Translations under genes and position numbers: made by a program
In this document: one piece after another, positions 2,192-30,243 of the stretch
Position numbering within the stretch: the stretch's first letter is position 1
Layout of the letters: every line of letters begins with the position of its first letter
Assembly: GCF_024346315.1 (NCBI RefSeq)
Contig: NZ_JAGQCS010000003.1
Coordinates: 248,001 to 312,000 of the forward strand
Source of the DNA: Cyanobium sp. ATX 6F1
GTDB lineage: Bacteria > Cyanobacteriota > Cyanobacteriia > PCC-6307 > Cyanobiaceae
Direction of reading: 5' to 3'
Length of the DNA stretch: 64,000 bases
The notes under the pieces: generated by a model
What the model was told of the DNA's origin: nothing
The model's input: only the letters and a program-made list of their open reading frames with translations
Databases searched by the model: none

Positions 2192-2827
2192 TCAGGGCAC
2201 CAGGCTGGTCCAGGCCAGGCTGGCGCCGATGCCGATCAGAACCCCGGAGGCGAGCTTGAGATCGGAGGGGCTCAGCTGGCTGCCCCAGCGGCGCACCAGG
2301 GTGATGGCGGCGGTCAGCAAGAGCGCCTGGCTGATCAGAAGGCCCAGCAGGTAGAAGGCGATCGGTGTGGGTTCCCAGCCCAGTACCGCGGCGCTGAGCA
2401 CGTAGCCGTGAAGCGCAAAAGCCGGCAGCAGGATCCAGCGGGGCAGGCGGCCTGTGAGCACCAGGCCCACCGCCACCAGTGAGAGGGCCACGAGCAGCTC
2501 TGCGCCAGGGAGACCCGGCAGCCAGAGGCCCAGCCCTGAGGCCGCCAGACCCGTGGCGAGCAGGCCCAGGATCCAGCGACGGGGCTGCTGCAGACCCACC
2601 AGCCCCAAGGAGAGCAGGAACAGCAGATGATCAGGACCGAGCACGGGATGCCCCAGGCCGCTGAGAATTCCCGCCGCAGGCCCTGGCTTGAGCTGGAACA
2701 AGCCCATCAGGTGATGGGCCGAGGCGGGCGCTTCGCCCAGGAGCACCAGCAGGAGCAGTGCCACGGCCAAGCCTGAAGTTGCGCGCCAGATCGAGAGGCG
2801 CAAGGGCGCCTCAACAGGAATGTTCAT
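2192..2827 (-). CDS. hupE: HupE/UreJ-family cobalt/nickel permease
   Basis: 211-residue membrane protein with a cleavable-looking N-terminal segment (about 1-37, ending APASA, followed by HH) and about six further hydrophobic helices. The HupE/UreJ signature HPVLGPDHLLF is at residues 60-70; its His and Asp residues are the expected metal ligands. Family members move Ni or Co. Position behind a cobalamin riboswitch and in front of a CobW protein supports cobalt uptake for B12. The stop is one base from the cobW start, so translation is probably coupled. Confidence 0.87.
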   Translation of the reverse strand: MNIPVEAPLRLSIWRATSGLAVALLLLVLLGEAPASAHHLMGLFQLKPGPAAGILSGLGHPVLGPDHLLFLLSLGLVGLQQPRRWILGLLATGLAASGLGLWLPGLPGAELLVALSLVAVGLVLTGRLPRWILLPAFALHGYVLSAAVLGWEPTPIAFYLLGLLISQALLLTAAITLVRRWGSQLSPSDLKLASGVLIGIGASLAWTSLVP

Positions 2828-2843
2828 GGTGGAGCCCGGTCCG

Positions 2844-2871
2844 CGCCGGAATGGAAGGGTCGAATCCGGCG
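2844..2871 (-). promoter_or_regulatory. Candidate expression-platform hairpin of the B12 riboswitch
   Basis: On the minus strand CGCCGGA (2871-2865) is perfectly complementary to TCCGGCG (2850-2844), a 7-bp stem. Its 5' arm overlaps the B12 box, so ligand-bound and hairpin states should compete. No U-run follows and the hairpin ends 17 nt before the hupE ATG, so control of translation is more likely than termination. Confidence 0.5.
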
Positions 2872-2998
2872 GGCGTTCTGACTAGACCGGCAGGGGCCCC
2901 GATGGGCTCCAGGGTCTTCACAGCTGCGGGACAGTGCCGGACTCGGAGCGAACTCCCCACCGGTCTTTCCCCGTTTCCTCCGCAGGCTGATCACCAAC
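2864..2998 (-). ncRNA. Cobalamin (B12) riboswitch upstream of hupE-cobW
   Basis: Read on the minus strand, the hupE leader carries the conserved cobalamin-riboswitch core in order: GGTGATCAGCCTGCGG, then AAACGGGGAA, CCGGTG, AGTCCGG, the invariant CTGTCCCGCAGCTGTGA block, and a B12-box-like AGTCAGAACGCCCGCCGG near 2883-2866. Spacing between the blocks matches the family. The riboswitch normally represses B12 synthesis and cobalt-uptake genes when adenosyl- or methylcobalamin is plentiful, which fits the HupE permease and CobW protein just downstream. Exact ends are approximate. Confidence 0.88.
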
Positions 2999-3015
2999 GG
3001 AACCGGATGACGAAT

Positions 3016-3558
3016 CTACCGGCACTCCAGGCTGTCCTTGGTATCCACGCCGGTTCGCGGGTTGACCCCTTCCGCCCGCTTGCACAGGGCGCGCCGCTGG
3101 CTCAGATCCAGCACCGCATCGGTGAAATCGGCCCCTTCGATCGACGCCCCCAAGAACTTGCTCTGCATGAGCATCGCGTCGCGCAACACGGCACCGCGCA
3201 GGTCGGCGCGATCGAAGCGGCTGGCGAAGGCCACCACGTCCTGGAGGTCCGCCCCGCGCAGGTCACTGCCCTGGAGATCGCTGCTGTTGAACACGGCACC
3301 GCGGAGGTCGGCGCCACTGAGATCGAAGCCGCTCAGCGATGCCTTCAGGAATTCCTGGAGGTGCAGATCTCGGCCGTGGCTGTCGGGGCTGAGGTCCTGA
3401 GCGTTGTTTTTACTGCGCACTTCGGGGGCGGTGATCGCCCAGGCCGGTGCCACCAAGGCCGGTGCCACCAAGCCCCCTGCCACGCCCAGAAGCAGTACCA
3501 GCAGGGTGATGACGCTGAATAGAGCTTGCATCAGCGCAGCTTTACCGTGGATCCTCAA
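3016..3558 (-). CDS. Exported pentapeptide-repeat protein, probably thylakoid-lumenal
   Basis: 180 residues from the first ATG, or 171 from a second ATG at 3531 that gives a better signal peptide (MQALFSVITLLVLLLGVAG, cleavage near AWA-IT). The mature protein is mainly an A(D/N)LxG-type pentapeptide-repeat helix (about residues 65-152, for example SGADLRGAVF and GADLQDV). It ends with a conserved tail of the cyanobacterial/plastid lumenal type, LCKRAEGVNPRTG...SLEC, with two Cys that could pair. The signal sequence contains an in-frame duplication (ALVAP twice) from a perfect 15-bp tandem repeat. Function of these lumenal proteins is not established. Confidence 0.75.
   Translation of the reverse strand: MRIHGKAALMQALFSVITLLVLLLGVAGGLVAPALVAPAWAITAPEVRSKNNAQDLSPDSHGRDLHLQEFLKASLSGFDLSGADLRGAVFNSSDLQGSDLRGADLQDVVAFASRFDRADLRGAVLRDAMLMQSKFLGASIEGADFTDAVLDLSQRRALCKRAEGVNPRTGVDTKDSLECR
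3442..3471. repeat. Perfect 15-bp tandem duplication in the pentapeptide-protein signal sequence
   Basis: ggccggtgccaccaa occurs twice head to tail (3442-3456 and 3457-3471). It adds five residues in frame to the hydrophobic core of the signal peptide, giving ALVAP-ALVAP. Confidence 0.9.
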
Positions 3559-3593
3559 GTTATGGCAGGCCTGCGCAGCACCGTGACCCTTCG

Positions 3594-4265
3594 ATGAGCA
3601 TGTCCCTGCGGGTCGTGGTGCCGCCCCACCCCTTGATCGGTCACTGGTTGACCTTGCTGCGCGACAGGACCACCCCGCCGGCCCTGTTCGCCACGGCGAT
3701 GGCTGAGCTGGGGCGCTGGCTCACCTACGAGGCCCTGCGGGATTGGCTGCCCCACCGGTCCGTAAGGGTCCAAACCCCCCGGGCCGAAACCGATGGTCAG
3801 GTGGTGGATGGGGCGGTGCCTCTCCTGGTGGTGCCGATCCTGCGGGCCGGCCTGGGCCTCTGGCAGGGGGCCCAGGCGGTGCTGCCCACGGCACGGGTGG
3901 CCCACGTGGGTCTGCGCCGCGATGAGCGCAGCGGTGAAGCCTCCTGGTACCTCGACCAGTTGCCCGAAACGATCGGCGAGCGCGTAGGGGTACTGGTGTT
4001 CGATCCGATGGTGGCCACGGCCGGAAGCCTCAGCCAGGTGCTCGAACGCCTCGAGCACAAGGGGGTTTCTGGAAAGCGGCTGCGGGTGATCTCCGCCCTG
4101 GCGGCGGCTCCAGGTTTGAAGCGGCTGGGGGAACGTTTTCCCGACCTCACCCTCTACACGGCCTGCATCGATGCCGAATTGGATTCGACCTTCAAGATCG
4201 TGCCGGGGCTGGGGGATGCGGGCGATCGGCTCTATGGAACTGATACCCCTCACTACCTAGGCTGA
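3594..4265 (+). CDS. upp: Uracil phosphoribosyltransferase
   Basis: Converts uracil plus PRPP to UMP in pyrimidine salvage. 223 residues, close to the usual 205-220. The PRPP-binding loop is DPMVATAGS at 137-145. PILRAGLG (81-88) and the C-terminal uracil-binding stretch PGLGDAGDRLYGT are characteristic. ATGs at codons 1 and 3 are both possible starts. Divergent from the pentapeptide-repeat gene with only about 35-60 bp between, so promoters must be very compact. Confidence 0.95.
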   Translation: MSMSLRVVVPPHPLIGHWLTLLRDRTTPPALFATAMAELGRWLTYEALRDWLPHRSVRVQTPRAETDGQVVDGAVPLLVVPILRAGLGLWQGAQAVLPTARVAHVGLRRDERSGEASWYLDQLPETIGERVGVLVFDPMVATAGSLSQVLERLEHKGVSGKRLRVISALAAAPGLKRLGERFPDLTLYTACIDAELDSTFKIVPGLGDAGDRLYGTDTPHYLG

Positions 4266-21253: not shown

Positions 21254-21369
21254 GGCCCTCGTTTCAAGCTTTGAGGCGATCGTAAGGGTGAGTGACCAAA
21301 CGCCCAGCAGCGGGGCCAGGAACGGTGTTAGCTTCCGGTCAACATCGTTCCAGCAGAGCAGGTTTCAAG

Positions 21370-22755
21370 ATGTTGCGAGTGGCGGTGGTTGGTGGTGGCC
21401 CCAGCGGTTCATGTGCTGCGGAGGTGCTGGCCAAGGCTGGTATCAAAACCTGGCTGTTCGAGCGCAAGCTCGACAACGCCAAACCCTGTGGCGGCGCCAT
21501 TCCGCTCTGCATGGTCTCGGAGTTCGACCTGCCTGAATCGATCATCGACCGCAAGGTCCGCCACATGAAGATGATTTCCCCCTCCAACCGCGAGGTGGAC
21601 ATCCATCTGGAGAACCAGGGCGAATACATCGGCATGTGCCGCCGGGAGGTGCTGGATGCCTTCCTGCGCAACCGTGCCGCCGACCTGGGGGCCCAGCTGG
21701 TGAACGGCCTGGTGCAATCGATCGACACCGGCAAGAACCGCCAGGGTCCCTACACCCTTCGCTATGCCGACTATTCAGCTGGCGGCGCCACAGGAGAGAT
21801 CAAGACCCTTGAGGTGGATCTGATTGTCGGCGCCGATGGGGCCAACAGCCGCGTCGCCAAGGCCATGGATGCCGGCGACTACAACATGGCCATTGCCTTC
21901 CAGGAGCGCATTCGCCTGCCGAAGGAGGAAATGGCTCACTATGAAGATCTGGCCGAGATGTACGTCGGTACCGATGTGTCGCCTGATTTCTATGCCTGGG
22001 TGTTCCCCAAGTACGACCATGTGGCCGTGGGCACCGGGACCATGCAAAAAAATCAGTCCCTGATCAAGAGTCTGCAGAAGGGGATCCGCCAGCGGGCCAG
22101 CCGACGGCTGCTCAATGGTGAGGTGATCAAGGTGGAGGCCCATCCGATTCCCGAGCATCCCCGTCCCCGTCGTGTGGTGGGCCGCATGGCTCTGGTGGGT
22201 GATGCGGCGGGCTATGTGACCAAGAGTTCGGGCGAGGGTATTTATTTCGCCGCCAAGAGTGGCCGCATGTGCGCCGAGGAGATCGTGGCCGCCAGTGCCC
22301 AGGGCACGCGCATCCCCACGGATAAGGATCTCAAGGTCTACATCAAGAAGTGGGACAAGGCCTACGGCGCCACCTACAAGGTGCTGGAGATCCTCCAGAA
22401 CGTTTTTTACAGCAACGATCCGGCTCGGGAAGCCTTTGTCGAGATGTGTGATGACAAGGACGTGCAGCGGCTCACCTTCGACAGCTACCTGTATAAGCGC
22501 GTGGTGCCCGTCAATCCCTGGCAGACGCTCAAGCTGACCCTGCTGACCATCGGCGCCTACCTGCGGGGCCAGGCCTTTGCGCCGGAGGGTTACAAGCCCG
22601 TGGCCAGCGCCGTGCGCTCCTCGGAGGAGGCCGAAGCGATCATGGTCTCCATGGCTGAAGCATCGAAGCCCGTCGTCAAGACGCCGGCCCCTTCGATGTC
22701 GTCGCCTGACGCGGAGTCCAAGGAGGAACGGGAGCCGGTTCTCGCTGCCAAGTGA
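21370..22755 (+). CDS. chlP: Geranylgeranyl reductase
   Basis: FAD/NADPH enzyme that reduces geranylgeranyl diphosphate or geranylgeranyl-chlorophyllide to the phytyl form, for chlorophyll and tocopherol. 461 residues from ATG 21370. The dinucleotide-binding motif VAVVGGGPSGSCAAEVLAKAG is at the N-terminus, followed by FERKLDNAKPCGGAIPLCMV, typical of ChlP. The second FAD motif is ALVGDAAGYVTKSSGEGIYF. The C-terminal ~40 residues are a variable Ser/Pro/Glu-rich tail. An upstream in-frame start (21292) gives a non-family extension and was rejected. Confidence 0.95.
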   Translation: MLRVAVVGGGPSGSCAAEVLAKAGIKTWLFERKLDNAKPCGGAIPLCMVSEFDLPESIIDRKVRHMKMISPSNREVDIHLENQGEYIGMCRREVLDAFLRNRAADLGAQLVNGLVQSIDTGKNRQGPYTLRYADYSAGGATGEIKTLEVDLIVGADGANSRVAKAMDAGDYNMAIAFQERIRLPKEEMAHYEDLAEMYVGTDVSPDFYAWVFPKYDHVAVGTGTMQKNQSLIKSLQKGIRQRASRRLLNGEVIKVEAHPIPEHPRPRRVVGRMALVGDAAGYVTKSSGEGIYFAAKSGRMCAEEIVAASAQGTRIPTDKDLKVYIKKWDKAYGATYKVLEILQNVFYSNDPAREAFVEMCDDKDVQRLTFDSYLYKRVVPVNPWQTLKLTLLTIGAYLRGQAFAPEGYKPVASAVRSSEEAEAIMVSMAEASKPVVKTPAPSMSSPDAESKEEREPVLAAK

Positions 22756-22763
22756 GACTGAAT

Positions 22764-22781
22764 CCCCTCCTTATGGTGGGG
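22764..22781 (+). terminator. Candidate terminator of chlP
   Basis: CCCCTCC-TTAT-GGTGGGG forms a seven-position stem with one T/T mismatch, 9 bp after the chlP stop. It is followed by the short pyrimidine run CTTTCT. The weak U-run keeps confidence modest. Confidence 0.45.
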
Positions 22782-22803
22782 CTTTCTGAGGTCTGAACGC
22801 CTT

Positions 22804-22819
22804 TGATGAGAACTCATCA
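22804..22819. repeat. Perfect 7-bp inverted repeat
   Basis: TGATGAG-AA-CTCATCA lies 48 bp after chlP in the spacer before the polyketide cassette. The two-base gap makes a dimeric-regulator operator more likely than an RNA hairpin, but no regulator is identified. Confidence 0.4.
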
Positions 22820-22849
22820 GTTCCCCAGACTGACGATCACAAGACTGCG

Positions 22850-23155
22850 TCAGCAGACTGTGAGAGCTTTTCTGTGACGGCTCACGAGGCTATAGACGAA
22901 TGCCTTGAGCGTCAGCGTGAGGCCAAGAACCATGTCATCAGCTTGATGCATGCTCTGCCTGATGTTTTCGATGGATGCCATCCTCGATGAGGGAACAATG
23001 GTTCTGTCTGATTCTTTAGACTTTTCCAATGCCTTTTTGAGAGCTTGACGATGACGACCGCGGTGCTGTTCACGCTCATGCAGCCAGGCTTCTAGCATGG
23101 CTGTATTCAGATGTTTCCACAATTTTGATCCTATTCCTTGGATTCTGCAGGGCAA
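22850..23155 (-). CDS. Doubtful orphan frame, 101 codons
   Basis: The translation is helical and charged (for example EAWLHEREQHRGRHRQALKKA and a later hydrophobic MVLGLTLTLKAFVYSLV). It has lower GC than the neighbours and no recognised domain. It could be a small horizontally acquired gene, a decayed one or chance. It is antisense to the direction of both neighbours and has no clear Shine-Dalgarno. Confidence 0.2.
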   Translation of the reverse strand: MPCRIQGIGSKLWKHLNTAMLEAWLHEREQHRGRHRQALKKALEKSKESDRTIVPSSRMASIENIRQSMHQADDMVLGLTLTLKAFVYSLVSRHRKALTVC

Positions 23156-23211
23156 GTCTGCGCCAGAATCCTTGGCTACCTTCGTCGCCAGGTTTTCTTC
23201 AAGGCATTTGA

Positions 23212-23949
23212 ATGGCTGTCATGGTCAACCTCAAGGAACGAAACCTGCAGCCCGAGTGGATGGATGATCCAGGAATCGATCCACTGGATCACGCCGAAGC
23301 CCTGCGGGGTCTCCAGCGCATCAATGGCCTCAGCCGTGCCGCCAGCAGTCTGTTCGCTCCGATTCGCGCCCTTGCCCGCCGCTTGCCCGATCGGCCACTG
23401 AGGGTTCTTGATCTTGCCTGCGGCGGTGGCGACAACACCCTGGCCCTCGCTGAGCTGGCCCGCCGTGAGGGGCTGAACATCCGTTTCGACGGCTGCGATC
23501 TCAGTGTGCAGGCCGTGGCGGTCGCCACAGGAAACGCCGTTGCCAGGGGACTGGAGGCGAATTTTTTCAAGGCCGACGCCCTCAGCGATCCGCTGCCAGG
23601 CGGCTACGACGTCCTGCTCTGCTCGCTGTTCCTCCACCATCTCGAGACCGACGACGCCGTAGGCCTGCTTCGGCGCATGGCCGCGGCAACCAGGCACCTG
23701 GTGCTCGTCAACGATCTGATCCGCAGTCCGCTGGGGTATGTGCTGGCCTGGTCGGCCTGTCGCCTGCTGAGCCGCTCCGCCATCGTCCATTACGACGGTC
23801 CTGTGTCGGTGCAGGGAGCGTTCCAAACCCAGGAGGTATCCGCCATGGCAATCCAGGCTGGCCTTGAGGGCGCCCTGGTGCGCCGCTGCTGGCCGGAGCG
23901 CTACCTGTTGCAGTGGAGCCAAAGCGATGCACCAGGACCGCAAGGATGA
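23212..23949 (+). CDS. Class I SAM-dependent methyltransferase of the type III PKS cassette
   Basis: 245 residues. Rossmann motif I VLDLACGGGDNTLAL at 65-79, motif II acidic residue in FDGCDLSVQAV, and DVLLCSLFLHHLETDDAVGLL as the post-II region. Overall resemblance is to UbiE-like small-molecule methyltransferases. First gene of a tight three-gene operon: its TGA overlaps the ATG of the FAD oxidoreductase (ATGA, 23946-23949), and the type III polyketide synthase follows. Likely substrate is the polyketide or an oxidised derivative; that is inferred from context only. ATG at 23221 is an alternative start. Confidence 0.85.
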   Translation: MAVMVNLKERNLQPEWMDDPGIDPLDHAEALRGLQRINGLSRAASSLFAPIRALARRLPDRPLRVLDLACGGGDNTLALAELARREGLNIRFDGCDLSVQAVAVATGNAVARGLEANFFKADALSDPLPGGYDVLLCSLFLHHLETDDAVGLLRRMAAATRHLVLVNDLIRSPLGYVLAWSACRLLSRSAIVHYDGPVSVQGAFQTQEVSAMAIQAGLEGALVRRCWPERYLLQWSQSDAPGPQG

Positions 23950-25088
23950 GTCGGCCCGACTGGGACGTGATCGTGCTCGGGGCCGGGCCCGCCGGTGCCC
24001 TCGCGGCCCGTCAGCTGGCGGCCCAGCGGCTGAGGGTGCTCCTGGTGGAGAAGCAGGCCTTTCCCCGCTGGAAGGTCTGCGGAACCTGCCTCAATGGCCA
24101 CGCCCTCAAGACCCTTGAGAGCGCAGGGCTGGGCGATCTTCCCGCTCAACTGGGGGGCGTCAGGCTTGCGCGTCTGCGGCTCGCCCTGGGGGGGCGCAGC
24201 GCCGACCTCCCTTTGAGCGAGGGCCGTTCGCTTTCCCGCAGCCGTCTGGATCAGGCCCTGGTGGAGGAAGCCCAGGCCACGGGAGCCCAGCTGCTGCCTC
24301 AAACGGAGGCACTCGTGGCTGCTGCGTCTCCGGGCGCCCGCTCGGTGCAGCTGCGCTCCGCCCAGGGCCAGCGCAGCGTCACGGCTCGGGTGGTTCTCGT
24401 TGCAACGGGTCTGGCTGACCGTTGCCTTCAGCCGCCTGCTCCGATCCGCTCCCGGGTGAGCCCCAGCTCGAGGATCGGTGCTGGATGTGTGCTTGAGGCC
24501 GCCCCAAGCTCCTACACATCAGGCACGATCCATATGGCCGTGGGTCGCCATGGCTATGTCGGCGTGGTGCGCACGGAGAGCGGCCAGGTCAATCTGGCCG
24601 CTGCCTTCGAGAGAACTCACCTGAAAACCTGTGGTGGTCCAGCCGCCGCGGCCCGGCAGGTGCTGGAGGAGGCCGGATTCGAGCCCCTGCCCCTCGGCAG
24701 TGGTGGTCCCTGGCGCGTCACGGCAGCCCTGACCCGCAGCAGCACCCCCCTGGCGGCCGATCGCCTCATGGTTCTCGGCGACGCGGCGGGCTATGTCGAA
24801 CCTTTCACTGGTGAAGGCATCGGCTGGGCGCTCAGCAGCGCCTTGGCGGTGGTGCCGCTGGTGCTTCAGGGTTTGAGCGACTGGGATCCCCGCCTCGAGC
24901 GCGACTGGGCCCATCGGCACGCGACCCTGATCGGACGAAGGCAGCGGCTCTGCCACACCCTCGCGTTTGCGCTGCGTCGTCCCCGGATCAGCCACGCCCT
25001 GCTGTTGGCCGCGACCCATCTGCCCATCCTGGTGACACCGGCCCTGAACCACCTCAATGGATCCTTCCACCGTCACGCGATCCCCTGA
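23946..25088 (+). CDS. FAD-dependent oxidoreductase of the type III PKS cassette
   Basis: 380 residues, group A flavoprotein monooxygenase / geranylgeranyl-reductase-like superfamily. N-terminal dinucleotide motif VIVLGAGPAGALAARQLA (8-25) with VLLVEKQAFPRWKVCGTCLNG just after it. The second FAD motif MVLGDAAGYVEPFTGEGIGWAL is in the C-terminal half. Cys45 and Cys48 next to the isoalloxazine region recall the CGG/CG motif of geranylgeranyl reductases. Coupled to the methyltransferase by ATGA and 4 bp from the polyketide synthase start. Hydroxylation or reduction of the polyketide is inferred. Confidence 0.87.
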   Translation: MSRPDWDVIVLGAGPAGALAARQLAAQRLRVLLVEKQAFPRWKVCGTCLNGHALKTLESAGLGDLPAQLGGVRLARLRLALGGRSADLPLSEGRSLSRSRLDQALVEEAQATGAQLLPQTEALVAAASPGARSVQLRSAQGQRSVTARVVLVATGLADRCLQPPAPIRSRVSPSSRIGAGCVLEAAPSSYTSGTIHMAVGRHGYVGVVRTESGQVNLAAAFERTHLKTCGGPAAAARQVLEEAGFEPLPLGSGGPWRVTAALTRSSTPLAADRLMVLGDAAGYVEPFTGEGIGWALSSALAVVPLVLQGLSDWDPRLERDWAHRHATLIGRRQRLCHTLAFALRRPRISHALLLAATHLPILVTPALNHLNGSFHRHAIP

Positions 25089-25092
25089 GCCC

Positions 25093-26181
25093 ATGGCCCT
25101 GATGATTCGCGGACTCGGCACCGCACTGCCAGCCCATCACATCGCCCAGAGCGAGGCCTGCCGGATCGCCCAGACCGTCGCCACACCGGACCGTCCCGCC
25201 GCTCCCAGTGAGCTGAGGTTGCTGGAGGCGATTCATCGGCGTTCCGGCGTCGGCAGGAGGCACAGCGTGCTGCTCGAACCCGGCGAGGACGGCAGCGTCA
25301 GCCAGCAGTCGTTCTTTGGATCCACCAGCCCGAGCACAGGCGAGCGCATGGAGCGCTACGGGCGCGAGAGCGAGCCCCTGGCCCTGGCGGCGGTGCGCCG
25401 CTGCCTGGAGCAGGCCGAACTCCCATCCACGGGGATCACCCACCTGGTCACCGTGTCCTGCACCGGTTTCCAGGCGCCCGGCTTTGATCTGGCCCTGATG
25501 CGGGAGCTGCCACTGGCCCCTGAGGTGGCCCGCACCCATGTGGGCTTCATGGGTTGCCACGGCACGCTCAACGCCCTGAGGGTCGCGGCTGGATTCATCG
25601 GCGCTGATCCTGGGGCCTGCGCGCTGATCTGTGCCGTCGAACTGTGCACCTTGCACCTCCAGTACGGCTGGCATCCCGAGCGGATCGTCGCCAATGCCCT
25701 GTTCGCCGACGGCGCCGCGGCCCTGATTGCCACGGGCGCCAAGGAAATGCCCACAGGGTTCCAGCGTCTGATCGCCAGTGGTTCGCTGCTCATTCCCGAT
25801 AGCCAGGGGGCGATGTCCTGGAGCATCGAGGATCACGGCTTTGTGATGACGCTTTCCGCCAAGGTGCCGGCCCTGATCGCTGAACATCTGCGGCCCTGGC
25901 TGCAGGACTGGCTCTCCCGCCAGGGGCAGAGCCTCGAAACGATTGGTTCCTGGGCGGTGCACCCCGGTGGGCCGCGCATCCTCTCGGCGGTGACGGAGGC
26001 CCTGGATCTCGCTCCCAAGCTGATCGAGCCCTCCAGATCCGTGCTGAAGAGCTGCGGCAACATGTCTTCGGCCACCATCCTGTTCATCCTCGAGCGCCTG
26101 CGGCAGGAGCAGGCCCCCGGCCCTTGCCTGGCCATGGCCTTCGGCCCGGGCCTGTGCGTGGAGGTGGCCCTGCTCAGCTGA
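25093..26181 (+). CDS. Type III polyketide synthase (chalcone/stilbene synthase family)
   Basis: Homodimeric ketosynthase that extends a starter acyl-CoA with malonyl-CoA and cyclises the product. 362 residues from ATG 25093. The catalytic triad is complete: Cys123 in TVSCTGFQAPGFD, His290 in WAVHPGGPRIL, Asn323 in LKSCGNMSSATILF. The C-terminal CoA-site block FGPGLCVEVALL is present. An upstream in-frame ATG (25057) overlaps the previous gene by 32 bp and is possible. Starter unit and product cannot be read from sequence. Alkylresorcinol/pyrone-type chemistry with a fatty acyl starter is one option for bacterial members. Confidence 0.93.
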   Translation: MALMIRGLGTALPAHHIAQSEACRIAQTVATPDRPAAPSELRLLEAIHRRSGVGRRHSVLLEPGEDGSVSQQSFFGSTSPSTGERMERYGRESEPLALAAVRRCLEQAELPSTGITHLVTVSCTGFQAPGFDLALMRELPLAPEVARTHVGFMGCHGTLNALRVAAGFIGADPGACALICAVELCTLHLQYGWHPERIVANALFADGAAALIATGAKEMPTGFQRLIASGSLLIPDSQGAMSWSIEDHGFVMTLSAKVPALIAEHLRPWLQDWLSRQGQSLETIGSWAVHPGGPRILSAVTEALDLAPKLIEPSRSVLKSCGNMSSATILFILERLRQEQAPGPCLAMAFGPGLCVEVALLS

Positions 26182-26212
26182 GCGCCCCCGCAACGACCCA
26201 GACGGGCCAGGT

Positions 26213-28390
26213 TCAGCCCGCCAGACGGCTGAAGTCCGCGAGCACGGAGGCCTGGTTGCGCAGCACCGCCAACAGGTTCAGGCGGTTGGTGCGCACGGCG
26301 GGATCGTCGCTCATCACCATCACGCTGGTGTCGCCATCGAAGAAGGCCGCCAGGGCCGCCGCCCCATCGGCCAGATTAGCCGCCAGCTGCCGGTAGCGGT
26401 CGCTGCCCATGGCGCGGCCCGAAGGGGCGGCCGTGGGCTGAAGTCCCACCAGCACATCCAGCACGCCCTGCTCGCTGACGGATTCGAACAGGGCGGGATC
26501 CACCACACCCTCGGGGCTGAGCACATCGCTGGCCAGGCTGGCCTTCTCCGCCAGCCGCGAGGCCCGCTGCACCACGGCCTGCACCGCCGCCAGCCGTCCC
26601 TCCAGCCGCAGTTCCGCCAGCAGGCGGACGCGGCCGAGGGCATCGCTCGGGTTGGTGAGGAGCCGATTCAGCGGCACGGTCTCCCCCGCCACCGCCTGCA
26701 CCAGATCGGGGGCGAAGCCCTGCTCCTCCAGCAGGCTCAGGAGCCGCTGACGCAGGAATCGGCTCAGCTCGCCGCTGAGGGCCCCCGCCTCCACAGCAAA
26801 GGCCGGGAAGAGGTCGTGCCAGTGGGCGCAGGCGCGACGGAGCATGGCACCCAGATCCAAAGCCCAGCCTCGCTCCCAAAGAATCTGCAGCAGCCCGTTG
26901 CCGGCACGTCGCAGGGCATAGGGATCGGAGGAACCCGTGGGCCGCTCCCCCTTGGCGTAGATGCTCAGCAGCAGCTCCAGGCGCTCGGCCATGGCCACCA
27001 CCGCCCCAGCGGCCGAGCTCGGCAGGTCATCGCCGGCACCCCGTGGCAGGTAATGCTCCAGCACCGCCAGGGCCACCTCCCGCGGCTCCCCTTCGGCGAG
27101 CAGCAACTTGGCGCCGATCACCCCCTGCAATTCGGGGAATTCACCCACCAGCTGGCTGACCAGATCGTGCTTGCACAGCTGGGCCGCCCGCCGTGCATGG
27201 GCGCAGACGTCGCCCTCCAGGGGCAGGGCTTCGAGCAACAGCTCCGTGAGCCACTCCAGGCGCCGGGAGCGATCGAGCAGGCTGCCCAGGCCTTCGGCGA
27301 AGGTCACCCGATCGAGTTCATCCAGGCGGCGCTCACTGCTCAAGCTGCGGTCGGAGCGCAGGAAGAATTCGGCATCGGCGAGCCGGGCCTTGAGCACCCG
27401 CTCGTTGCCGCGCCTCACGGTGCTGGCGGCTGATTCCAGGCCATTGCCGATGCAGAGAAAGCTCGGCAGCAGCCGCCCCTCGGCGCTGAGGGCCAGGGGA
27501 TCGCTGGGCGCCTCGGCATGGATCAGGGGCACGTAGCGCTGGTGCAGACGCATCACCGTGGAGAGCACCTCCGGCGGCAGGGCCAGGTAGCGCTCGGCGA
27601 TGCTGCCCTCAATCAGTCTGGGGGACTCCACCAGATCGACCAGCTCATCGAACAGTTCGCTGGGCAGGTCAAGGCGGGCGCCACGCTCCTCGGCGGCCTG
27701 CTCCAGCGCCTGACGGATCCAGCGCGCACGTTCGAGCCGATCCACCTGCACCCCCGCCGCCGCCAGCGAGCTGGCGTAGGACTCGGCGTGCTCCAGGGGA
27801 ACGCTCTCGGCCAGCAGCCGATGGCCACGGCTGTGGCGGGTGCTCCTGAGCGGAGGATCACTGCCCTCGAGCTGGAATTCGAGCAAGGTCGCATCGAGCA
27901 GGGCCACCAGCCAGCGCACCGGGCGGCTGAAGCGGATCTCCCCTTCGCCCCAGCGCATGAAGCGGCGCCCCTGCAGATCCGTGATCCAGCTGGGGATGCG
28001 CTCCACCAGCAACTCAGCGCTGGGGAGTCCGATCGAGCGCTGGCGGGCGAACACGAAGGCACCTTTGGGGGTCTCGCGAATCTCCAGCTCGGAGGTTTCG
28101 ATGCCGCAGCGGCGAGCGAAGCCGATGGCCGCCTGAGTGGGCTCGCCATTGACGATCGCCTGGGCCAGCGGTGGTCCCTTGCGTTCCTCCAGCAGATCCT
28201 CCTGGCCCGCCGGCAACCCCTCCACCTGCACCGCCAGTCGCCGGGGTGTGCCCAGGCTGCGCAGGCTCCCATGGGCGAGCCGCAGTTCGTTCAGGTCGCG
28301 GCGAACAGCCGCCTCCAGCTGGGGCAAGGCGAGACGAACAAAATCCGCCGGAAGTTCCTCGGTGCCGATTTCCAGCAGGAAGGTGGCCAC
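26213..28390 (-). CDS. glyS: Glycyl-tRNA synthetase beta subunit
   Basis: Partner of GlyQ (encoded elsewhere) in the bacterial alpha2beta2 enzyme; binds tRNA(Gly). 725 residues from GTG 28390 (VATFLLEIGTEELPADFV), which is the family start. The ATG-like start 57 bp upstream would enter the sir-glyS spacer. Typical blocks are KGPPLAQAIVNGEPTQAAIGFARRCG and an HD-domain-like region LCKHDLVSQLVGEFPELQG. The C-terminal anticodon-binding domain includes MVMSDDPAVRTNRLNLL. Divergent from sir across 89 bp. Confidence 0.95.
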   Translation of the reverse strand: MATFLLEIGTEELPADFVRLALPQLEAAVRRDLNELRLAHGSLRSLGTPRRLAVQVEGLPAGQEDLLEERKGPPLAQAIVNGEPTQAAIGFARRCGIETSELEIRETPKGAFVFARQRSIGLPSAELLVERIPSWITDLQGRRFMRWGEGEIRFSRPVRWLVALLDATLLEFQLEGSDPPLRSTRHSRGHRLLAESVPLEHAESYASSLAAAGVQVDRLERARWIRQALEQAAEERGARLDLPSELFDELVDLVESPRLIEGSIAERYLALPPEVLSTVMRLHQRYVPLIHAEAPSDPLALSAEGRLLPSFLCIGNGLESAASTVRRGNERVLKARLADAEFFLRSDRSLSSERRLDELDRVTFAEGLGSLLDRSRRLEWLTELLLEALPLEGDVCAHARRAAQLCKHDLVSQLVGEFPELQGVIGAKLLLAEGEPREVALAVLEHYLPRGAGDDLPSSAAGAVVAMAERLELLLSIYAKGERPTGSSDPYALRRAGNGLLQILWERGWALDLGAMLRRACAHWHDLFPAFAVEAGALSGELSRFLRQRLLSLLEEQGFAPDLVQAVAGETVPLNRLLTNPSDALGRVRLLAELRLEGRLAAVQAVVQRASRLAEKASLASDVLSPEGVVDPALFESVSEQGVLDVLVGLQPTAAPSGRAMGSDRYRQLAANLADGAAALAAFFDGDTSVMVMSDDPAVRTNRLNLLAVLRNQASVLADFSRLAG

Positions 28391-28479
28391 GAAAGCAGGT
28401 CTCAGCAGCCCACGACTGTATTGAACAACGTTGCTGGCACCGTCCATTCGCTACGGTCGACGCCTTCGGGTGAGTTGCC

Positions 28480-30243
28480 GTGACCGTCACCTCTGAGCCG
28501 ACCAAGGCTCCGAGCAAGTTCGAACGCCTCAAGGCGGAAAGCGGACACCTGCGCGAACCGATGGCGAGCGAACTGACCAACACGAGTCAGCATTTCACCG
28601 AGCCGGCCGTTCAGATCCTCAAGTTCCACGGCAGTTATCAGCAGGACAACCGCGACAACCGCCAGAAGGGCAAGGAAAAGGACTGGCAGATGATGCTGCG
28701 GCTGCGCAGCCCCGGTGGCCGCATCCCTGTGCCGCTCTATCTGGCCATCGATGAACTCTCTGACCGGCTCGGCAACGGCACCTTGCGGGCCACCACCCGT
28801 CAGACCTTTCAGATGCATGGCATCGCCAAGGGTGACCTCAAGGAGGTGATCGCCACCATCCTGCGCCACATGGGCTCCACCCTGGCCACCTGCGGTGACA
28901 TCAACCGCAATGTGATGGCCCCGGCCGCTCCGTTCGAGGGCGGTGGTTATCCGGCCGCCCGCCAGTTGGCTGAGCGCATCAACGACCTCCTCTTGCCCCA
29001 GGCGGCCGAGGGGGCCTACCTCGACATCTGGCTCGACGGTGAGCTCAGCCACCGCATCAAGCCCACTGCTGGGATTCGCAAGCTGCGCACGAGCCCGGCT
29101 CAAGGACCCGTGTTCAGCGGCGATGGGGCCGAACCCATCTACGGCGACACCTACCTGCCGCGCAAGTTCAAGATCGCCGTCACCGTTCCAGGCGACAACT
29201 CCGTCGACCTGCTCACCCAGGACATCGGACTGGTGGCCTTCAGCGACACCAAGGGGCGTCTCAAGGGTTGCAACGTCTATGTCGGTGGCGGCATGGGCCG
29301 TACCCACAACAAGGAGGAAACCTTCGCCCGAATCGCCGATCCGCTCGGTTATGTGGCCGCCGCCGATGTGCTGCCTCTGTTGCAGTCGATCGTGGCCCTG
29401 CAACGGGACCACGGTGATCGGGAGCAGCGCCGACATGCCCGCATGAAGTACCTGATCCACGACCGCGGCATCGACTGGTTCCGCCTCGAGCTGGGGCGCT
29501 ACTTCAGCTCCACCCTGCTGCCGCTGAAGGCTGAGCCGAAACGCAAGCTCGTGGACTACCTGGGCTGGCACCGCCAGGGCAACGGCCTCTGGTTCGTGGG
29601 CCTGCCCGTGCTCAGCGGCCGCCTGCAGGGCGAGCTCAAGCGCGGCCTGCGTGATCTGATCGCCACCTACCAACTGGATGTGCGGCTGACACCCAACCAG
29701 GATCTGCTTCTCTGCAACATCGCCAGCAGCCAGCGCAGCAGCGTGCGCACCGCCCTCGAGGCGCTTGGCTTTGCCCGCCCAGAGGCGCCGCCGCCCCTGG
29801 CACGCCATGCCCTCGCTTGCCCGGCCCTGCCCAATTGCGGGCTGGCGGTGACGGAAGCCGAGCGGATCTTGCCGAATGTGCTTGATCGTCTGGACCGCCA
29901 GCTGAAACGCCTTGGGATCGATCGTTCCGTGCTCGTGCGTGTCACGGGCTGCCCGAACGGCTGCGCCAGGCCCTACATGGCGGAGATCGGCTTGGTGGGT
30001 ACCGCTGACGGGGATTACCAGCTCTGGCTGGGGGGAAGTCCTGGACTCACCAGATTGGCCGAGCCATACATTTTCAGGATGCCCCTGGTGGTGCTCGAAC
30101 CGATCCTCGAGCCCCTGTTCCTCGCTTGGCAGTCCACGGGCCTGGGCACAAGCTTCGGAGACTTCGTGACCCGGCTGGGCAACGATGAGGTCTGGAAGCT
30201 GCTCAACCAGGGGGATGCCGCCTCCTTGCCGGCGCGTCCATGA
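28480..30243 (+). CDS. sir: Ferredoxin-dependent sulfite reductase
   Basis: Reduces sulfite to sulfide with six electrons from ferredoxin, feeding cysteine synthesis. 587 residues from GTG 28480. Sirohaem/4Fe-4S ligands: CPALPNCGLAVTEAE (CxxxxxC) and VTGCPNGCARPYMAEIGLVG (CxxxC), both in the C-terminal half. N-terminal half has RATTRQTFQMHGIAK and CGDINRNVMAP. The Cys at the second active-site position and the CGD(I/V)NRN block favour sulfite over nitrite reductase. The next gene starts inside its stop (ATGA). Confidence 0.93.
   Translation: MTVTSEPTKAPSKFERLKAESGHLREPMASELTNTSQHFTEPAVQILKFHGSYQQDNRDNRQKGKEKDWQMMLRLRSPGGRIPVPLYLAIDELSDRLGNGTLRATTRQTFQMHGIAKGDLKEVIATILRHMGSTLATCGDINRNVMAPAAPFEGGGYPAARQLAERINDLLLPQAAEGAYLDIWLDGELSHRIKPTAGIRKLRTSPAQGPVFSGDGAEPIYGDTYLPRKFKIAVTVPGDNSVDLLTQDIGLVAFSDTKGRLKGCNVYVGGGMGRTHNKEETFARIADPLGYVAAADVLPLLQSIVALQRDHGDREQRRHARMKYLIHDRGIDWFRLELGRYFSSTLLPLKAEPKRKLVDYLGWHRQGNGLWFVGLPVLSGRLQGELKRGLRDLIATYQLDVRLTPNQDLLLCNIASSQRSSVRTALEALGFARPEAPPPLARHALACPALPNCGLAVTEAERILPNVLDRLDRQLKRLGIDRSVLVRVTGCPNGCARPYMAEIGLVGTADGDYQLWLGGSPGLTRLAEPYIFRMPLVVLEPILEPLFLAWQSTGLGTSFGDFVTRLGNDEVWKLLNQGDAASLPARP

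Follow-up and report, generated by a model that had tools for sequence, protein, structure and literature searches.

Three adjacent genes of Cyanobium sp. ATX 6F1, located in a 64,000-nucleotide stretch of DNA that was analyzed as a whole (the window), are very probably (about 0.9) a picocyanobacterial copy of the hidABC cassette, a class already described, as judged from published descriptions and from a tree of relatives. They encode a SAM-dependent methyltransferase (MT), an FAD oxidoreductase, and a type III polyketide synthase (PKS), and by analogy the product is most likely a hydroxylated and methylated 5-alkylresorcinol of the hierridin type. The original hid paper is reportedly that of Costa et al., 2019. 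Larsen et al. (2021, PMC8086630) reported 47 hierridin-like clusters from cyanobacteria, mostly in the order hidA (methyltransferase), hidB (oxidoreductase), and hidC (type III PKS), with Synechococcus and Prochlorococcus as common hosts. The assignment of hidABC to hierridin B in Cyanobium LEGE 06113 was made by the discoverers of the cluster (PMC8086630), and a hierridin B cluster has been annotated in Synechococcus LA31 (PMC8928756). The window cassette resembles hidABC of Cyanobium LEGE 06113 and of Synechococcus and Prochlorococcus in its three genes, their order, the protein families, and the picocyanobacterial host, as well as in the Met gatekeeper and Cys-His-Asn triad of the PKS. No distinguishing feature was found in this comparison, in which HidC (QBC65480) was represented by published descriptions and by the tree of relatives.

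As the earlier note on this DNA had described, the three genes are on the same strand (Table 1), the FAD gene starting within the MT stop (ATGA overlap, 23946-23949) and being followed by a 4-bp gap before the PKS gene (25088 to 25093). They are contiguous and in the order MT, oxidoreductase, type III PKS, as in hidABC. The PKS gene starts 4 bp past the FAD gene in the window and in Cyanobium sp. Morenito 9A2 (locus L002), versus 10 bp inside the FAD gene in most relatives; read from the earlier ATG, it would span 25057-26181. The same note had assigned the proteins to the right families, and both flavoprotein motifs that it reported, GAGPAG and GDAAGYVEPF, were found. Scanning of positions 22600-26400 revealed no promoter or terminator, and we therefore infer co-transcription of the cassette from the gene spacing. 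An ORF of 101 codons located between chlP and the cassette had no match in 39 relatives and is probably not a conserved gene.

Table 1. Coordinates of the cassette and of neighboring features in the window.
Feature	Position	Strand	Description
chlP	21292..22755		upstream neighbor
ORF	22853..23155	-	101 aa
hidA-like SAM-dependent methyltransferase (MT; P0003)	23212..23949	+	245 aa; Methyltransf_25
hidB-like FAD oxidoreductase (P0002)	23946..25088	+	380 aa; FAD_binding_3
hidC-like type III PKS (P0001)	25093..26181	+	362 aa; Chal_sti_synt_N/_C; gatekeeper Met252
Alternative in-frame PKS ATG	25057..25095	+	overlaps the 3' end of the FAD gene
glyS	26213..28447	-	downstream neighbor
sir	28480..30243		sulfite/nitrite-reductase-like

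The PKS, present as a single copy in the genome, combines the N- and C-terminal chalcone synthase domains (Pfam Chal_sti_synt_N, E-value 1e-21; Chal_sti_synt_C, 1e-24) with the Cys-His-Asn triad expected of a type III PKS. The triad, Cys155-His290-Asn323, is invariant in all 84 aligned sequences. The nucleophile, Cys155, lies within the motif HVGFMGCHG and aligns with Cys175 of Pks18, whose triad is Cys175-His313-Asn346 (PMC6274091). The earlier note was thus right about His290 and Asn323 but had mistaken Cys123 for the nucleophile. Compared by description rather than by column alignment, Cys123 (VSCTGF) looks like a second active-site thiol, of the kind known as Cys106 in THNS and Cys120 in ORAS (PMC6274091). 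Cys185 aligns with the acyl-tunnel residue Cys205 of Pks18 (PMC6274091). The best NCBIfam match, DpgA (3,5-dihydroxyphenylacetyl-CoA synthase, NF042429), was rejected as an identification, its score of 167 bits being far under the cut-off of 425.

Pks18 and a brown-alga PKS III are the best solved relatives of the window enzyme. Since Pks18, the nearest of these by sequence, is an alkylpyrone synthase (PMC6274091), the PKS might be thought to make long-chain alkylpyrones by lactonization, the tailoring enzymes then acting on a pyrone; pyrones were also left possible for some Prochlorococcus enzymes (Larsen et al., 2021, PMC8086630). The residue at the gatekeeper position, Phe265 of CHS, argues against this reading. 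According to Larsen et al. (2021, PMC8086630), that column is occupied by Cys in Pks18-related cyanobacterial enzymes and by Met in the HidC clade (3.2222). Cys was found in Pks18 itself and in the PKSs of two family loci, L096 and L097. The window enzyme has Met252, like HidC, and Met occupies the column in 84 of 84 aligned sequences. The Met gatekeeper is therefore consistent with membership of the HidC clade, but it is not diagnostic, since the more distant PKSs of loci L091-L095 also have it. Planctomycetes provide further evidence against pyrones. A tricistronic operon of the same type has been reported for 58 planctomycete PKS genes, and PKSs of this operon type produced pentadecyl- and heptadecylresorcinols in C. 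glutamicum (PMC10896814). Moreover, as of 2021, cyanobacteria had yielded no isolated alkylpyrone (Larsen et al., PMC8086630). Together, these observations make alkylpyrone formation very improbable.

Placement of the PKS in a type III tree, as proposed in the earlier note, located it among picocyanobacterial PKSs of the same cassette. In a quick tree of 89 PKSs, some of whose branches are long, the window PKS pairs with that of Cyanobium sp. Morenito 9A2 (81%). The pair is nested in a clade of 24 rows (SH-aLRT 99), and a picocyanobacterial clade of 49 rows (SH-aLRT 99) holds the window PKS together with those of Synechococcus WH 5701 and Prochlorococcus MIT 0701. Outside the picocyanobacterial clade are Planctomycetota and metagenome-assembled genomes (MAGs) of four other phyla. 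The planctomycete operon has the gene order and families of the window cassette, and its PKSs are about 47-56% identical to the window PKS; it differs by the phylum, by its separate branches in the tree, and by the apparent C-methylation catalyzed by the G. maris MT. The cassette, or its FAD-PKS part, was also observed in MAGs labelled Hydrogenedentota, Acidobacteriota, Elusimicrobiota, and Gemmatimonadota (loci L046, L077, L078, L053, L060, L061, L062, and L069), for which binning errors are possible; these copies lie outside the cyanobacteria and Planctomycetota of the published surveys (PMC8086630; PMC10896814). A MAG labelled Bifidobacterium breve (L010) bears a picocyanobacterial PKS and is most likely a mis-binned contig.

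Gene order was compared in the best 80 loci obtained when 84,980 genomes, each representing one species, were scanned. The order MT, FAD enzyme, PKS on one strand was found in 69 of the 80 loci. In seven of the other 11, a contig end cuts the cassette (L006, L008, L010, L050, L053, L068, and L080); the remaining four (L056, L072, L073, and L074) lack the full order and are not cut by a contig end. Between the window and Morenito 9A2, dN/dS was about 0.15-0.24 for all three genes, indicating purifying selection at the sequence level, as expected of working genes. The recurrence of the same order and these dN/dS values indicate that the three-gene arrangement is far beyond chance.

Within the family, 222 genomes, each at least 95% complete, were surveyed. 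A PKS match was present in 84 of them, including six with only 33-43% identity (G010, G029, G043, G164, G166, and G213); the latter matches are other PKS types and were left out, leaving 78 genomes with a hid-type PKS. The MT was found in 78 genomes, including the divergent G164 and G166, and no listed genome among the 222 had the MT without a PKS. The MT accompanied the hid-type PKS in 76 of 78 genomes; the two exceptions were a deletion remnant (G018) and a genome whose contig ends 910 bp away from the PKS (G035). Presence in the family is thus patchy (78/222), and the genes are tightly co-occurring (76/78). Of the types named in the earlier note (resorcinol, pyrone, or quinone), the resorcinol type is supported, as is a compact, co-inherited unit for a methylated and oxidized type III polyketide. 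The survey also revealed another kind of type III PKS, about 40% identical, in G164 and G166 (loci L091 and L092), where the order is PKS, MT, FAD enzyme, as well as two further divergent PKS groups (L094/L095 and L096/L097, the latter being the group with the Cys gatekeeper).

The cassette lies between chlP, upstream, and glyS followed by sir, downstream. This slot is common to the window and 12 other loci (L002, L005, and L015-L024); the position of the cassette is elsewhere in other picocyanobacteria. The GC content of the cassette was 0.65-0.70, versus 0.62-0.69 for its neighbors. Recent horizontal arrival in the window is unsupported, since the composition is without clear difference and the slot is common to 12 other loci. 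In L005, the gap between chlP and the cassette contains a gene (2544-3911, minus strand) whose product resembles a membrane protein of the CNNM/CBS type; it is absent from the window, and the window genome has distant relatives only (30% and 27% identity). In G018, an in-frame deletion in the chlP-glyS slot (L100:3850-4720) has removed the FAD gene and left the N-terminus of the MT running into the PKS at about PKS residue 106; this remnant is a natural loss of the cassette. Decaying cassettes were observed at two other loci: at L098:3221-6144, the PKS gene has an internal stop and the FAD gene is split over two frames; at L099:3436-5200, all three genes are fragmentary.

The MT matched Pfam Methyltransf_25 (5e-14) and NCBIfam PRK06202 (237 bits, slightly under the cut-off of 243). 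Its AlphaFold model (pLDDT 94.6) has a class I SAM-methyltransferase fold, which is compatible with O- as well as C-methylation, the nearest solved folds including enzymes of both kinds. The pathway could accordingly share its core with that of hierridin B and end in another compound, such as a C-methylated alkylresorcinol or an alkyl hydroxyquinol, relatives of HidA and HidB varying in regiochemistry. Such an outcome would be in line with the G. maris operon, in which addition of the MT and FAD genes led to one methylation, probably on carbon (PMC10896814), and with the moderate identity of the family MTs to the window MT (42-79%). Against it, the PKS groups with those of picocyanobacteria, whose known cassette compounds are O-methylated (PMC8086630). 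We consider a different end product rather doubtful.

The FAD enzyme matched FAD_binding_3 (1.6e-13) and, below the cut-off, the GG-reductase superfamily (113 bits). Flavin-dependent halogenases and aromatic hydroxylases were the nearest folds to its model (pLDDT 92). The top matches were the halogenases PltA, ChlB4, Mpy16, and Bmp2 (Z 37-38; for PltA, Z 38.1 and 2.8 Å over 362 residues), closely followed by GG-reductase-like, squalene epoxidase, and aromatic hydroxylase folds (Z 32-35), including PHBH, 3-hydroxybenzoate 6-hydroxylase, and PnpA (Z 32-33). In flavin-dependent halogenases, the N-terminal FAD motif is followed by a catalytic Lys, in the region of residues 50-80, and a GWxWxIP motif is present. 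No conserved Lys was found at residues 50-80 of the FAD enzyme, and GWxWxIP is missing, residues 203-209 reading GYVGVVR (GYxGxVR). The halogenase assignment, which could have accounted for the chlorination of hierridin C, a step without a known enzyme (PMC8086630), was rejected on these motifs. The FAD gene is moreover constant in the cassette, yet chlorination has been reported from one strain, and halogenation by this enzyme appears most improbable. The FAD enzyme does combine FAD_binding_3 with the PHBH-type fold expected of a class A flavin hydroxylase, although fold alone is no proof of activity. With the motifs arguing against halogenation, ring hydroxylation is the likeliest step for the modelled enzyme.

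For HidC, loading of a long acyl-ACP, three extensions with malonyl-CoA, and resorcinol ring closure have been proposed (PMC8086630). By analogy, the window PKS would load onto Cys155 a long fatty acyl group delivered by either ACP or CoA and extend it with three malonyl-CoA units to a tetraketide, which C2-C7 aldol condensation and decarboxylation would convert into a 5-alkylresorcinol; a palmitoyl starter would give a C15 chain. The FAD enzyme, as a flavin monooxygenase, would most likely hydroxylate the ring, and the MT would methylate ring hydroxyls, presumably on oxygen rather than carbon, to yield a methoxylated alkylphenol of the hierridin type. The srsABC cluster of Streptomyces griseus works alike, with a type III PKS, a methyltransferase, and a flavin hydroxylase acting on an alkylresorcinol. 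This alkylresorcinol cluster with a hydroxylase was compared by description: SrsA belongs to type III PKS clade 2.22, and HidC to clade 3.222 (PMC8086630).

The product had been regarded in the earlier note as not predictable from sequence, a view that, by its own criterion, would be refuted by a characterized clade sharing this gene order and having a known product. In substance, hidABC is such a clade, the order MT, oxidoreductase, PKS being the published one (PMC8086630; PMC10896814). The product class can be predicted since the hidABC order has known products in cyanobacteria and the planctomycete PKSs produce alkylresorcinols. A new alkylresorcinol derivative, with a methylation or oxidation pattern unlike that of hierridin B, is unlikely, but conceivable, a single picocyanobacterial product family having been linked to the cassette and the assignment of both tailoring steps being putative.

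The cassette is a real, co-inherited unit that is subject to purifying selection. As its kind is already known, the finding is an ordinary one. It adds one more genome for a known, patchily inherited pathway. The occurrence of intact cassettes beside naturally decayed ones offers strain pairs for probing the role of picocyanobacterial alkylresorcinols in the cell.
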